Virus record (IMG/VR): IMGVR_UViG_3300047557_000323
Coordinates: 1 to 22,276 of that record
Strand: one strand, 5' to 3'
DNA from: a virus
Length of the DNA stretch: 22,276 bases
Part shown: positions 2,340-6,421 of the stretch, piece by piece
How the letters are laid out: every line of letters begins with the position of its first letter
Numbering within the stretch: the first letter of the stretch is position 1
Made by a program: the position numbers and the translations under genes
Notes under the pieces: model-generated
Told to the model about the DNA's origin: nothing
Database searches by the model: none
Seen by the model: only the letters and a program-made list of their open reading frames with translations

Positions 2340-2515
2340 TGACCACACAGGAAGCGATCCAGCACTACGGCGGGATCAGGAAATTGGCCGAGGAACTCAA
2401 GGTCTGGCCGCAGGTCATCTACGCTTGGGGCGACCGCCCACCGATGGGCCGTCAGTACGAACTGGAGGTCAAGACAGAAGGCGCACTCAAGGCTGACCGC
2501 GATGACGAAATCTGA
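2339..2515 (+). CDS. cro: P22 Cro-like repressor
   Basis: A 58-aa protein with the sequence pattern TQEAIQHYGGIRKLAEELKVWPQVIYAWGD is a short helix-turn-helix of the P22 Cro/YdaS type: the first helix and GG turn, the LAEEL helix, and the recognition helix around WPQVIYAWG. The end GALKADR is also characteristic. The ATG at 2339 is preferred over an in-frame ATG at 2309 because AAGGA lies 7 nt before it. It overlaps the primase start by 14 bp. It should bind the CCGGTT boxes just upstream and control both the leftward recombination operon and its own replication operon. No opposing CI gene is present beside it, which is unusual for a lambdoid-style switch. Confidence 0.8.
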   Translation: MTTQEAIQHYGGIRKLAEELKVWPQVIYAWGDRPPMGRQYELEVKTEGALKADRDDEI

Positions 2516-4385
2516 AGCAGCATTGATGTATGCCTCATGGGGATGGCACGTTCTGCCAGTCGTCCCCAATGGCAAGGTGCCTGCCACGCAACATGGCGTC
2601 AAAGACGCAACCACCAACGCAGAACAGATCGCCAGGTGGTGGATACAGAATCCTGACTTCAATATTGGCATCGCAGCAGGCGAACGCTCAGGCATCGTTG
2701 TCTTTGACGTTGATCCACGCAACGGAGGCGACTCCTCCTGGGCCAAATGGATTGACATGAACGGCACCGTACCAGACGGGCCAATGCAAATGACCGCAGG
2801 CGGTGGCGAGCATCACATTGCCATGTATGACCCTGAGATCCGCTCTTGCAAACTCTCAGAAGGCGTTGATCTTCTTGCCGATGGAAGGTACTTCGTCGCC
2901 TTCCCATCGACCATCGAAGGTCGGCAATACCAGTGGGAAGCATCCTCTGATCCATTCGATGGCATCGCACCATTCCCTATCCCTGCCGATTGGATGCAGT
3001 CTTACAGGGCCATGCGCAAGCCAGAAAATCGGCAAGCCTCTACAGGCGGCGGGCTGATCCAAGGCAGTCGCAACAACGGCCTTACAGCAATCGGTGGTGC
3101 CATGCGGCGCTACGGCATGACAGAAGCTGAAATCATGGCCGCTCTGTCCATTGCCAATGAGACTCGATGCGAGATTCCTCTGCCATCTTCTGAGTTAGCT
3201 CAGATCGTCAAGTCTGTCTCACGCTACGAACCAGAGTTCGACATAGGCGCAGATGTTGCCCTTGGCAGCGATGCCGCTGAAGCGATCCTCGAGGCCACTC
3301 GCGCAGAAACACAAGATTACTTCTTCACCCGCGCAACGTCCTACCTCAGCCAACCAGCACCTCTGCGCTGGATCATCAAGGGATGGATTCCTGACAGCGG
3401 CGTGAGCATGGTCTACGGAGAATCAGGCTCAGGCAAAACCTTTATCACCCTAGACATGGCTTGCCACATTGCAGCAGGCATGCCCTGGCACAACCACAAA
3501 ACTCAGTCTGGCCTCGTCATCTACATGGCCGGTGAAGGTAACTACGGTCTGCGGCAACGGGTCGCCTCCTGGTGCAAAGTTCACAACGTCAACAGTCTTG
3601 ACAACCTTCTGATCTCGAACAAAGCCATCGACATCGACAGCCCAGCCGCAGCAGCACAAATCATCAATGCCGTTCGAGAAGTCACGGCAGAAGATGCAAC
3701 AGCAATCTTCATTGATACCGTCAACAATCACATGGCAGGCGACGAAAACAGCGCCAAAGACACTCGCCACATGCTCAACGCCTGCAACATCGTTGCCAGA
3801 GCATTGAACTCCAGCGTTTGCCTCAACCATCACACAGGACACTCCATCGACGCCAAGCAACGGGCCAGAGGATCAAGCGCCTGGAAAGCATCCCTAGATT
3901 CCTCAATTTTGGTTTCCAAGAAAGACGACAGCATTGAAATCTCATGCACAAAAATGAAGGATGCAGAGCCACCACATCCTTTTTTCGGAAAACTTGAATC
4001 CGTGCCGCTGGGATGGATTGATGAAGATGGCGATGAAATAAAAGGCGCGGTCTTTATGATTGACGATAATCCGCCAGAACAAAACGACACAAAAGAATCA
4101 GACAATCAGCGCGATATTCGCAAATTCACAAACGCATGGTGGAACTCAGGCGCGGAAGATCGTCACGGCCAGCCTTATCTGTCACGCAGCGCATTGATTG
4201 ATTATTTGATTTCAAACGAAGGATTGACAGAATCAACGGCCAAAACATACGCACAGGAAAGCAAAAAGGGAAGGCTGATTTATAACCTGCTGAACGCCGA
4301 AATCATTACCGCATCAGAGCGCGGATGGGTCGTCTCGAACGACGTCACGGCCTCCGCAATGATGCTCAGACGTCGATCATCGTAG
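2502..4385 (+). CDS. Prim-pol primase fused to RepA-like replicative helicase
   Basis: This 627-aa protein should prime and unwind DNA at the phage origin. Residues 4-165 form a bifunctional primase-polymerase domain (PF09250 type): WHVLPVVPNGKVP, the metal-binding FDVD at 68-71, and GGGEHHIAMYD (100-110) with the catalytic-type histidine. A small helical linker (180-245) follows. Residues 285-500 form a RepA-like (AAA_25) hexameric helicase: Walker A GESGSGKT (306-313), AGEG (343-346), Walker B IFIDT (402-406) and NHHTGH (442-447). The C-terminal 100 residues resemble a winged-helix DNA-binding tail. It begins inside cro, with weak own ribosome signal, so it is probably translated by coupling. 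The GGACA-repeat patch right after its stop is a candidate binding site. Confidence 0.88.
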   Translation: MTKSEAALMYASWGWHVLPVVPNGKVPATQHGVKDATTNAEQIARWWIQNPDFNIGIAAGERSGIVVFDVDPRNGGDSSWAKWIDMNGTVPDGPMQMTAGGGEHHIAMYDPEIRSCKLSEGVDLLADGRYFVAFPSTIEGRQYQWEASSDPFDGIAPFPIPADWMQSYRAMRKPENRQASTGGGLIQGSRNNGLTAIGGAMRRYGMTEAEIMAALSIANETRCEIPLPSSELAQIVKSVSRYEPEFDIGADVALGSDAAEAILEATRAETQDYFFTRATSYLSQPAPLRWIIKGWIPDSGVSMVYGESGSGKTFITLDMACHIAAGMPWHNHKTQSGLVIYMAGEGNYGLRQRVASWCKVHNVNSLDNLLISNKAIDIDSPAAAAQIINAVREVTAEDATAIFIDTVNNHMAGDENSAKDTRHMLNACNIVARALNSSVCLNHHTGHSIDAKQRARGSSAWKASLDSSILVSKKDDSIEISCTKMKDAEPPHPFFGKLESVPLGWIDEDGDEIKGAVFMIDDNPPEQNDTKESDNQRDIRKFTNAWWNSGAEDRHGQPYLSRSALIDYLISNEGLTESTAKTYAQESKKGRLIYNLLNAEIITASERGWVVSNDVTASAMMLRRRSS

Positions 4386-4389
4386 GGTG

Positions 4390-4470
4390 GGACAATTGGG
4401 ACAGGACAGGACAAATTGGGACAAATGTCCTGGGGCAAGACAGCAGGACAATTGGGACAGGACAGGGACA
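4390..4470 (+). repeat. GGACA iterons with a 21-bp direct repeat
   Basis: Nine GGACA units lie in the same direction at 4390, 4399, 4404, 4409, 4419, 4446, 4455, 4460 and 4466. A perfect 21-bp repeat, built as GGACAATT plus GGGACAGGACAGG, occurs at 4390-4410 and 4446-4466. A third, diverged copy (GGACAAATTGGGACAAA) starts at 4409 and forms a short hairpin with TGTCC at 4426-4430. The short spacings of 5, 6, 9 and 10 bp are those of clustered protein-binding sites such as origin iterons. No gene overlaps them. Confidence 0.8.
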
Positions 4471-4503
4471 CCCCCTTTAGGGAAGGGGTGTCCTGTCTGT
4501 CCC
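4454..4503. other. Long imperfect hairpin, candidate replication origin structure
   Basis: The left arm 4454-4474 pairs with 4485-4503 over 19 bp, with two single-base bulges on the left arm. The loop (4475-4484) can pair further as CCC/GGG around TTTA. The arms are built of GGACA/TGTCC units, so the structure joins the iterons. There is no T-tract after it, so it is not a standard terminator. Together with the iterons, and lying just after the prim-pol/helicase gene, it is the best candidate for the phage origin of replication; an RNA-level role in the operon transcript is the alternative. Confidence 0.5.
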
Positions 4504-4517
4504 AGTACTGATGCGGG

Positions 4518-4919: not shown

Positions 4920-5138
4920 ATGACCACAGCCAACACAACCCAGGTCGGCGGCAGTCACTACAAGGACAAAGGAATACAGCCTTGGGACTATATTGCTGCC
5001 AATGATCTAGGATACTTCGAAGGCAATATAGTGAAGTATGTCAGTCGTTGGAAAGACAAAGGCGGTGTCGAGGATCTGAAAAAAGCTCGGCATTATCTGG
5101 ATAAACTGATCGAAATTCAGACGGATGATTTGAAATGA
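4920..5138 (+). CDS. DUF3310 family protein
   Basis: The 72-aa product contains the family signature VGGSHYKDKGIQPWDYI, then GYFEGNIVKYVSRW, then GGVEDLKKARHYLDKLIE. This is the DUF3310 domain (PF11753 type), common in phages and often loosely labelled as a nucleotide kinase, though its activity is not established. The ATG at 4920 is preferred to an in-frame upstream start at 4893 because GAGGA lies 4 nt before it and conservation begins right after. Its last four bases ATGA are shared with the start of the methyltransferase gene. The invariant His, Trp and Tyr residues suggest ligand binding. Position between replication and DNA modification genes hints at nucleotide metabolism. Confidence 0.85.
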   Translation: MTTANTTQVGGSHYKDKGIQPWDYIAANDLGYFEGNIVKYVSRWKDKGGVEDLKKARHYLDKLIEIQTDDLK

Positions 5139-6421
5139 CAAAAGGCCAAAACAAAACAAATCCAGCAGATAAGGTAGAGCAATGGCCCATTGAGAAACTG
5201 GTGCCATACGCAAAAAACTCTCGCACTCATAGCGATGCTCAAGTCGCTCAAATCGCTGCGTCAATTAAAGAATGGGGATTTACTACCGCTGTCCTGGTGG
5301 ACGAATCAGGAAGCATCATTGCAGGCCACGGTCGCGTCATGGCGGCTCGCAAGCTCGGCATGACATCTCTGCCAGTCATGGTCGCTTCAGGCTGGACGGA
5401 TGCACAGAAGCGCGCCTACGTCATTGCCGACAACAAGCTGGCGCTGAACGCCGGATGGGACAACGAACTGCTGTCTCTTGAACTTGGCGAGCTTGGCGAT
5501 TTAGGATTCGACCTCGAGTTGACCGGATTCACGGATGAGGAAATCAAGGCGCTGATGCCGGTGGAAGTGACCGAAGGACTGACCGACCCGGACGCTGCTC
5601 CTGCCGTGCAGGAAAACCCGGTCACGGTGCCTGGTGACGTCTGGATCATGGGCAAGCACCGGCTGATGTGCGGCGACAGCACCAGCATTTCAGCCGTCGA
5701 GATGCTGATGGCTGGCGAAAAAGCAGACATGGTGTTTACCGACCCACCGTATGGCGTCTCGTATGAAGATTCAAAAGGCAGGAAAATCCAGAACGATGAA
5801 TTGGTCGATGACAAGCTGCAGGAGTTCGTGACTGAGGCATTTTCATGTGGAGTCGCAATCTGCAAAGATGGAGCCGCATGGTTTGTCTGGCACGCATCTC
5901 GATTCCAACGTGAATTTGAGAACGCCTTAAACAAGGCTGGCTTGAAAGTACGCCAGCAGATCATCTGGGTAAAAGGACAAGGAGTTGATGGCACTGCTCA
6001 AGTCCAAGCACCAGCCATTGGCAGAAGCCATTTCAGATGGCTGCACGAGCCGTGTTTTTATGCCAGCAAGACTCAGCCATTCAACGCTGGAGACAGAAAG
6101 ACAACGACCGTCTGGACAGTGACACGACAGACGACAGGCACAGTACACCCGACTCAGAAGCCAGTTGCATTGATTGAGATTGCACTTGAGAACAGCAGCA
6201 AGAGCGAGGACGTTGTGCTTGATCTGTTTGGCGGCAGCGGCAGCACACTGATTGCCTGCGAAAAGACAGGACGCATCAATCGCAGCATGGAACTGGACCC
6301 ACGCTACTGCGACGTCATCGTCAAGCGGTGGCAGGACTTCACCGGCAAGCAGGCAATTCACGCAGAAACTGGCAAACCTTTCGCGGAGGTTAAAAATGGC
6401 AACGAAGACGTTAAAAACTGA
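5135..6421 (+). CDS. ParB-like domain fused to DNA methyltransferase (beta-class, DPPY)
   Basis: The 428-aa protein has an N-terminal ParB/sulfiredoxin-like domain (about 10-110): NSRTHSDAQVAQIAASI, then IAGHGRVMAARKLG. The second half is an N6-adenine or N4-cytosine methyltransferase: catalytic DPPY at 203-206, HPTQKP at 338-343 and the AdoMet-binding LDLFGGSGST at 362-371, with ELDPRYCDVI after it. The order DPPY before the AdoMet site is that of beta-class enzymes. Such fusions are frequent in phages and probably methylate phage DNA to escape host restriction. No partner endonuclease gene is adjacent. It overlaps DUF3310 by ATGA at its start and overlaps the small terminase gene by 26 bp at its end. 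Confidence 0.9.
   Translation: MTKGQNKTNPADKVEQWPIEKLVPYAKNSRTHSDAQVAQIAASIKEWGFTTAVLVDESGSIIAGHGRVMAARKLGMTSLPVMVASGWTDAQKRAYVIADNKLALNAGWDNELLSLELGELGDLGFDLELTGFTDEEIKALMPVEVTEGLTDPDAAPAVQENPVTVPGDVWIMGKHRLMCGDSTSISAVEMLMAGEKADMVFTDPPYGVSYEDSKGRKIQNDELVDDKLQEFVTEAFSCGVAICKDGAAWFVWHASRFQREFENALNKAGLKVRQQIIWVKGQGVDGTAQVQAPAIGRSHFRWLHEPCFYASKTQPFNAGDRKTTTVWTVTRQTTGTVHPTQKPVALIEIALENSSKSEDVVLDLFGGSGSTLIACEKTGRINRSMELDPRYCDVIVKRWQDFTGKQAIHAETGKPFAEVKNGNEDVKN

Follow-up and report, generated by a model that had tools for sequence, protein, structure and literature searches.

The stretch 4386-4510 of this viral DNA is very probably the replication origin of the phage, recognised by the product of the replicase gene that precedes it. 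This reading was reached by comparison of sequences, and it is favoured because an array of the same architecture stands behind the stop codon in almost all relatives, because the sequence of the repeat unit changes with the winged helix of the replicase, and because the palindrome within the array is kept via compensatory changes. Origins are unknown for most environmental phages; here, a candidate origin can be located from the replicase gene, and the residues proposed to read the repeats can in turn be traced from the repeats themselves. The window, i.e. the whole stretch of 22,276 nucleotides that was analysed, is a virus record, and a 36.9-kb contig carries the same replicase with 100% identity.

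The repeat array and the replicase gene

Nine direct GGACA units on the + strand (4390, 4399, 4404, 4409, 4419, 4446, 4455, 4460 and 4466) and three inverted TGTCC units (4426, 4489 and 4498) were counted in the window, and this is the number that an earlier note, made from the letters of this DNA, had given for a patch of 114 bp. The maximum in 200 Markov shuffles of the whole window was 5 units per 114 bp, compared with 12 observed at 4390-4502. The spacing of 5-10 bp described in the same note holds inside each of the two clusters, but not between them, where the step is 27 bp. Cluster A (4390-4423, + strand) consists of the direct iterons at 4390, 4399, 4409 and 4419 in steps of 9-10 bp, the unit at 4404 being a non-conserved extra, and is closed by the inverted unit GGGACAAATGTCC (4426-4430, - strand; unit count and array alignment). 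The spacer at 4431-4445 (+ strand) is, according to the array alignment, the site of the otherwise conserved GACAAGGCG motif, for which the window reads GGGCAAGACAGC. Cluster B (4446-4470, + strand; unit count and direct-repeat search) contains the units at 4446, 4455, 4460 and 4466, and the perfect 21-bp repeat that had been proposed was found again as 4390-4410 and 4446-4466. The palindrome GGACACCCC-CTTTAGGGAA-GGGGTGTCC (4466-4493, no strand assigned) was placed from the fold and from the conservation of its stem in relatives, and the inverted units at 4489 and 4498 (4489-4502, - strand; unit count and array alignment) mirror cluster B. The tightly packed units at 4404 and 4460 are not kept in all relatives, and both the spacer and the right end of the window array are of a less common variant among the aligned arrays.

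When 4386-4510 was folded as single-stranded DNA, a free energy of -29.3 kcal/mol was obtained (z = -4.96 against shuffles), and the long bulged stem described in the earlier note was present. The patch had also been called free of genes, and indeed no credible gene was recognised in the array stretch by ORF reading, nor was a tRNA or an Rfam family match found there. The absence of a T-tract was likewise borne out, none being present after the stem in the window.

The array begins a few bases past the stop codon of the replicase gene (2502-4385, + strand), the first unit starting at 4390, so that its placement just after a prim-pol/RepA-like helicase was correct. The replicase (627 residues) combines a Prim-Pol domain, PriCT_1, an AAA_25 helicase (RepA-like, RecA fold) and a C-terminal winged helix, with Pfam matches to PF09250 (E=6.9e-32), PF08708 (1.1e-12) and PF13481 (5.2e-36); no Toprim or SF3/D5 match was obtained in Pfam. 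The winged-helix domain, which is proposed to read the repeats, comprises residues 534-627 (4101-4382, + strand; AlphaFold2 and Foldseek). A small Cro-like HTH gene of 58 aa (2339-2515, + strand), recognised by ORF reading and by its counterpart in MW202867, annotated as 'DNA-binding transcriptional regulator cro', extends into the 5' end of the replicase gene. The opposite strand encodes a Sak4-like annealing ATPase as well as a single-strand-binding-like protein. Downstream genes encode a methyltransferase, terminase, portal and major head protein, the terminase genes lying approximately 1.8 kb beyond the array. The predicted DNA methyltransferase of the window (5135-6421, + strand) has an N-terminal ParB_N-like segment that scored below the cut-off.

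Arrays and winged-helix domains in relatives

Two scans of viral contigs yielded more than 80 loci encoding the same protein, and a repeat array was present 3' of the stop codon in nearly all of the loci having a 3' flank. No closely identical isolate turned up; phages of Idiomarinaceae, Alteromonas and Salicola, for which cultured hosts exist, are 38-41% identical in the helicase part. Repeats were also counted automatically, as the commonest 6-mer on both strands within 150 bp with a threshold of at least 5. This threshold was reached in 57 of 60 distinct homologues; among the remaining ORF ends of these loci, which served as controls, 1 of 522 reached it. One of the homologues missed (L033) has the unit ACCCCC and was lost because this unit was dropped by the low-complexity filter, and in another (L081) the array is present, shifted by approximately 70 bp. 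Inspection by eye left a distant relative (L186) as the sole true absence of an array of this kind among the 60 homologues. The clusters that the earlier note had expected at the same place in related phages were seen in 57 homologues by count and in two more by eye, and the assignment of the array to the preceding replicase gene is supported as well. In each of ten near-complete genomes a single cluster of its own unit was found, always 3' of the replicase. These sequence comparisons indicate that the array is a real, selected element. A literature search for GGGACA repeats in phages returned nothing relevant. As a separate observation, the distant relative without an array (L186, MW202475) carries instead, after its repA-like gene, a perfect GGCTATAATC / GATTATAGCC inverted repeat, which is perhaps a stem-loop origin of the pRN1 kind.

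The aligned arrays have a common order of direct units, an inverted unit, a spacer, two to three direct units, the palindrome, two inverted units and ACGATGTG. The spacer GACAAGGCG is largely kept across relatives, even where the unit differs, and the loop of the palindrome is TTTA- or TATA-like. GGGACA units are mostly spaced by 9-10 or 20 bp, which corresponds to one or two helical turns. In the palindrome stem 98% of the cells were paired and two-sided changes were found in four of five pairs, compared with 20-56% pairing in slid controls; the eleven stems of this set were chosen by eye, a choice that favours pairing, not particular compensations. No conserved AT-rich unwinding element was found.

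The earlier note had considered the helicase C-terminus to be of a DNA-binding type, and this was upheld by the prediction of a winged helix whose sequence predicts the repeat unit. An AlphaFold2 model from 27 aligned C-termini reached a pLDDT of 90, with the order helix, strand, helix, helix, helix, strand, strand, helix. A first model, built for the full-length replicase, had a poor pLDDT of 52 and was left out. The Foldseek matches in the PDB were mostly winged-helix regulators (CRP family, CadC, GntR and TubR) and were weak (E>=0.2). RepA_N (PF06970), the DNA-binding domain of iteron-binding plasmid initiators, matched 7 of the 27 members weakly and without significance (best E=0.016). Sequence searches of the PDB returned nothing relevant for the winged helix and nothing for the full-length replicase.

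The units in the close family are GGGACA, GGGGACA, GGTAACA, GAACA, ACGATACA and AACCCCC, and those in cultured marine phages are GGTACA and GGTTCA. Among 39 representatives, unit similarity followed the identity of the winged helix when the primase-helicase core was controlled for (partial Mantel 0.713, p=0.0005) and did not follow the core when the winged helix was controlled for (-0.07, p=0.71), with the reservation that this and the other Mantel p-values given here are optimistic, the relatives being clustered. The same pattern is visible in single pairs: the replicases of L094 and L098 are 85% identical in the core and 54% in the winged helix, and their units are GGGACA and GGTAACA, whereas between L094 and the window identity is only 61% in the core and rises to 73% in the winged helix, and both have the GGGACA unit.

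A single residue may take part in this specificity. Residue 585, encoded in the window by the Gln codon at 4254-4256 (+ strand), is Gln in 41 of 41 proteins with GGGACA arrays in which G is never the main base before the unit; where the unit is GGGGACA, it is Lys in 5 of 5 proteins. The association of Gln or Lys at 585 with TGGGACA or GGGGACA arrays gave a Fisher p=7e-7, which is again optimistic on account of the clustering. A new close member (L359), found by starting from GGGGACA arrays, also has Lys at this position. On the core tree the exchange needs two well-supported switches, four in all, and for this reason a tree-based sign test was without power. With so few independent switches, the residue-base rule at 585 is suggestive rather than established.

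Proposed initiation and alternative readings

If the array is the origin, initiation would take place at the array itself. The winged-helix domains of several replicase monomers would bind the direct units of cluster A, which, being one helical turn apart, would lie on one face of the DNA, and this binding would nucleate a helicase ring. The mirrored units round the palindrome could seat a second, oppositely oriented set of replicases, and the palindrome would melt or be extruded to give single-stranded DNA. The ring would then load, and the Prim-Pol domain would prime on the single strands of the palindrome. With two oppositely oriented sets and an opened palindrome, it is proposed that forks could leave both ways.

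The GC-skew minimum, which the earlier note had offered as a check, speaks neither for nor against an origin at the array. In the 36.9-kb contig carrying the same sequence, it is 377 bp away from the array; it is less than 400 bp away in two of ten genomes, this contig being one of them, and elsewhere in the other eight. In the window the minimum is near a switch of gene direction. In 20 of 60 relatives (e.g. L009, L069 and L058), a perfect DnaA-box-like TGTGGATAA was found approximately 120-165 bp past the replicase stop codon. In many of them it coincides in part with the GTG start codon of a small gene rich in cysteine codons, and in others it is non-coding; no DnaA boxes were found near the array in the window. 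A dependence on DnaA was rejected, the boxes occurring in a third of the relatives, overlapping start codons and being missing near the window array.

It is unlikely that the array is bound by the replicase or another protein for regulation only, as an autoregulatory operator or as a barrier to transcription where the replication operon ends, while replication starts at another site. The coupling of winged helix and unit speaks for recognition, not for function, and the array stands directly behind the replicase gene. However, the array is downstream of the gene and not at a promoter, a second cluster that could be the origin was absent in all ten near-complete genomes, and in staphylococcal pathogenicity islands (SaPI) and pRN1 the element in this position either serves as the origin or is needed for replication (PMC7581432, PMC4234260).

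That the palindrome acts as RNA, whether in terminating or processing the replicase mRNA or in priming replication, is decidedly improbable. Compensatory stem changes are explained equally well by single-stranded DNA and by RNA, and the fold is strong; yet the stem has no T-tract behind it in the window, an Rfam match was not obtained, and folding as RNA explains neither the presence of direct units nor why they vary with the winged helix. Transcription termination as such was rejected on the missing T-tract.

An array serving the Cro-like protein as its operator has very little probability, although the size of the repeat would suit an HTH protein and the Cro-like gene overlaps the replicase start. 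With a usable Cro-like ORF in only 22 of the 60 homologues, 17 representatives could be compared. After control for winged helix and core, unit similarity did not track the Cro-like protein (-0.17, p=0.85), and the partial Mantel for the winged helix was still 0.588 (p=0.001) when the Cro-like protein was also controlled for. A packaging (pac/cos) or partition site, which the terminase genes approximately 1.8 kb further on might suggest, is highly improbable in view of the coupling to the replicase winged helix and of the like arrays that a pattern search found behind unrelated replicases.

Known systems and similar arrays elsewhere

By analogy with SaPI, pRN1 and P4 as precedents, the layout of the proposed origin is known in kind. 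What appears to be new is an iteron-plus-palindrome origin of the RecA-type helicase branch, re-specified jointly with its reader domain. Among the closest known systems are SaPI Rep/ori and SCCmec Cch2/ori, which have an iteron array directly 3' of the replicase gene, the place taken here by the short direct repeats. SaPI Rep is described in a passage of PMC7581432 (citing Ubeda 2007) as a self-loading helicase whose C-terminal domain recognises iterons directly downstream of its own gene. In the phage, the domain that would be specific for the repeats is a predicted winged helix, which co-varies with the unit. The helicases differ: SaPI Rep and Cch2, from islands of Gram-positive bacteria, fall into the DUF927 and D5-like groups, whereas the phage protein joins a Prim-Pol to a RecA-type AAA_25 helicase. 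In addition, the phage array holds a covarying palindrome inside mirrored units. In pRN1, the Prim-Pol/SF3/winged-helix protein ORF904 is accompanied by a 3' stem-loop needed for replication, at most approximately 170 bp past the stop codon, and a similar proposal was made for Bordetella phage BIP-1 (PMC4234260). The likeness extends to the domain set of primase, helicase and C-terminal winged helix, to a small regulator gene in front and to a long stem-loop soon after the stop codon; the helicase of pRN1 is of the SF3 type, and its lack of iterons is emphasised by the authors (PMC4234260), while AAA_25 takes the place of SF3 here and iterons and hairpin are combined.

The earlier note had spoken of a P4-type system. 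Phage P4 needs two separate sites, ori and crr, and the helicase of its alpha protein is of the SF3 type. In contrast, each of the ten near-complete genomes holds a single cluster, and neither a Toprim primase, an SF3/D5 helicase nor two distant iteron sites were found, the replicase having Prim-Pol (PF09250, versus Toprim in alpha), PriCT_1 and AAA_25. In function the comparison stands: according to a passage of PMC4234260, alpha unites primase, helicase and winged helix in one protein that reads origin repeats, and the phage replicase would do the same with its predicted winged helix. Membership fails for both P4 and pRN1 because the type of helicase differs, and for P4 because the type of primase differs too.

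RSF1010, as treated in part of PMC4234260, has a RepA-type helicase, oriV iterons and ssi hairpins where the primase starts. It resembles the present case in helicase, iterons and hairpins, but its RepA, RepB' and RepC are three separate proteins, compared with one fused protein here, for which a primase start at the palindrome is only proposed. The domain order is also that of the PrimPol-PV1 supergroup (PrimQH and related proteins), described in sections of PMC5862659 as primase, PriCT, an exchangeable helicase (RepA, DnaB, VirE, DUF927 or DUF3987) and winged helix. Origin recognition by this winged helix was predicted there, and the origins themselves are not identified in those sections; the array is a candidate for the origin so predicted.

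Similar arrays were sought beyond this replicase family by a scan for the repeat pattern without a protein query. In 33 of 45 loci, an ORF of 350 residues or more had its 3' end no further than 200 bp from the array, some of the 33 belonging to the replicase family itself; in 1 of 45, the array was near the 5' end of an ORF. A similar scan with GGGGACA gave a weaker contrast, with 3' ends in 7 and 5' ends in 2 of 18 loci. Outside the family, most of the ORFs tested beside arrays encode VapE, DUF5906, DUF927, DUF3987 or AAA_25 proteins, and some of these domains are among the exchangeable helicases listed for mobile-element primases in a section of PMC5862659. These sequences suggest a general origin layout across such replicases. 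Arrays of mirrored GGGACA units were observed directly behind VapE, DUF927, DUF3987 and other AAA_25 replicases (L226, L229, L233, L252, L270, L272, L277 and others). The C-termini of these replicases are unrelated, and the GGGACA units behind them are perhaps convergent.

Tentatively, these origins and initiators might form a natural set of mutually orthogonal pairs, in which winged helix and iterons are re-specified together, Gln585 goes with T, C or A and Lys585 with G before GGGACA, and the same 3'-adjacent layout recurs in several unrelated helicase types. If this were true, related phages could share a cell without using each other's origins, which would offer a testable explanation for the way in which replication is kept private among related phages and satellites. 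Through the joint change of repeat spelling and DNA-reading domain, what had been a plausible guess becomes a lock-and-key pair open to testing, with natural variants at hand for working out the recognition code. It also provides a rule for locating origins beside Prim-Pol/AAA_25 replicases and apparently beside VapE, DUF927 and DUF3987 replicases.

In bacterial genomes, mostly enterobacterial ones, distantly related AAA_25 genes often have repeat clusters behind them as well. The units there are different, e.g. GTGGGGGA, TGCGGCA and GTGAGGA, and six of these clusters were above a conservative null. In the GTDB loci L107, L136, L153, L157, L168 and others, the AAA_25 genes belong to enterobacterial prophages or islands and have GTGGGGGA, GTGAGGA or TGCGGCA units on their 3' side. 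A Helicobacteraceae MAG (L129) has, 3' of its AAA_25 gene, mirrored units round a CCCCTATAAGGGG palindrome, the unit (CGTAGC) being quite different. Eighteen GGGACA units in approximately 180 bp, with a 42-bp period, precede a 725-residue ORF without a Pfam match in a further locus (L267:995-1177).
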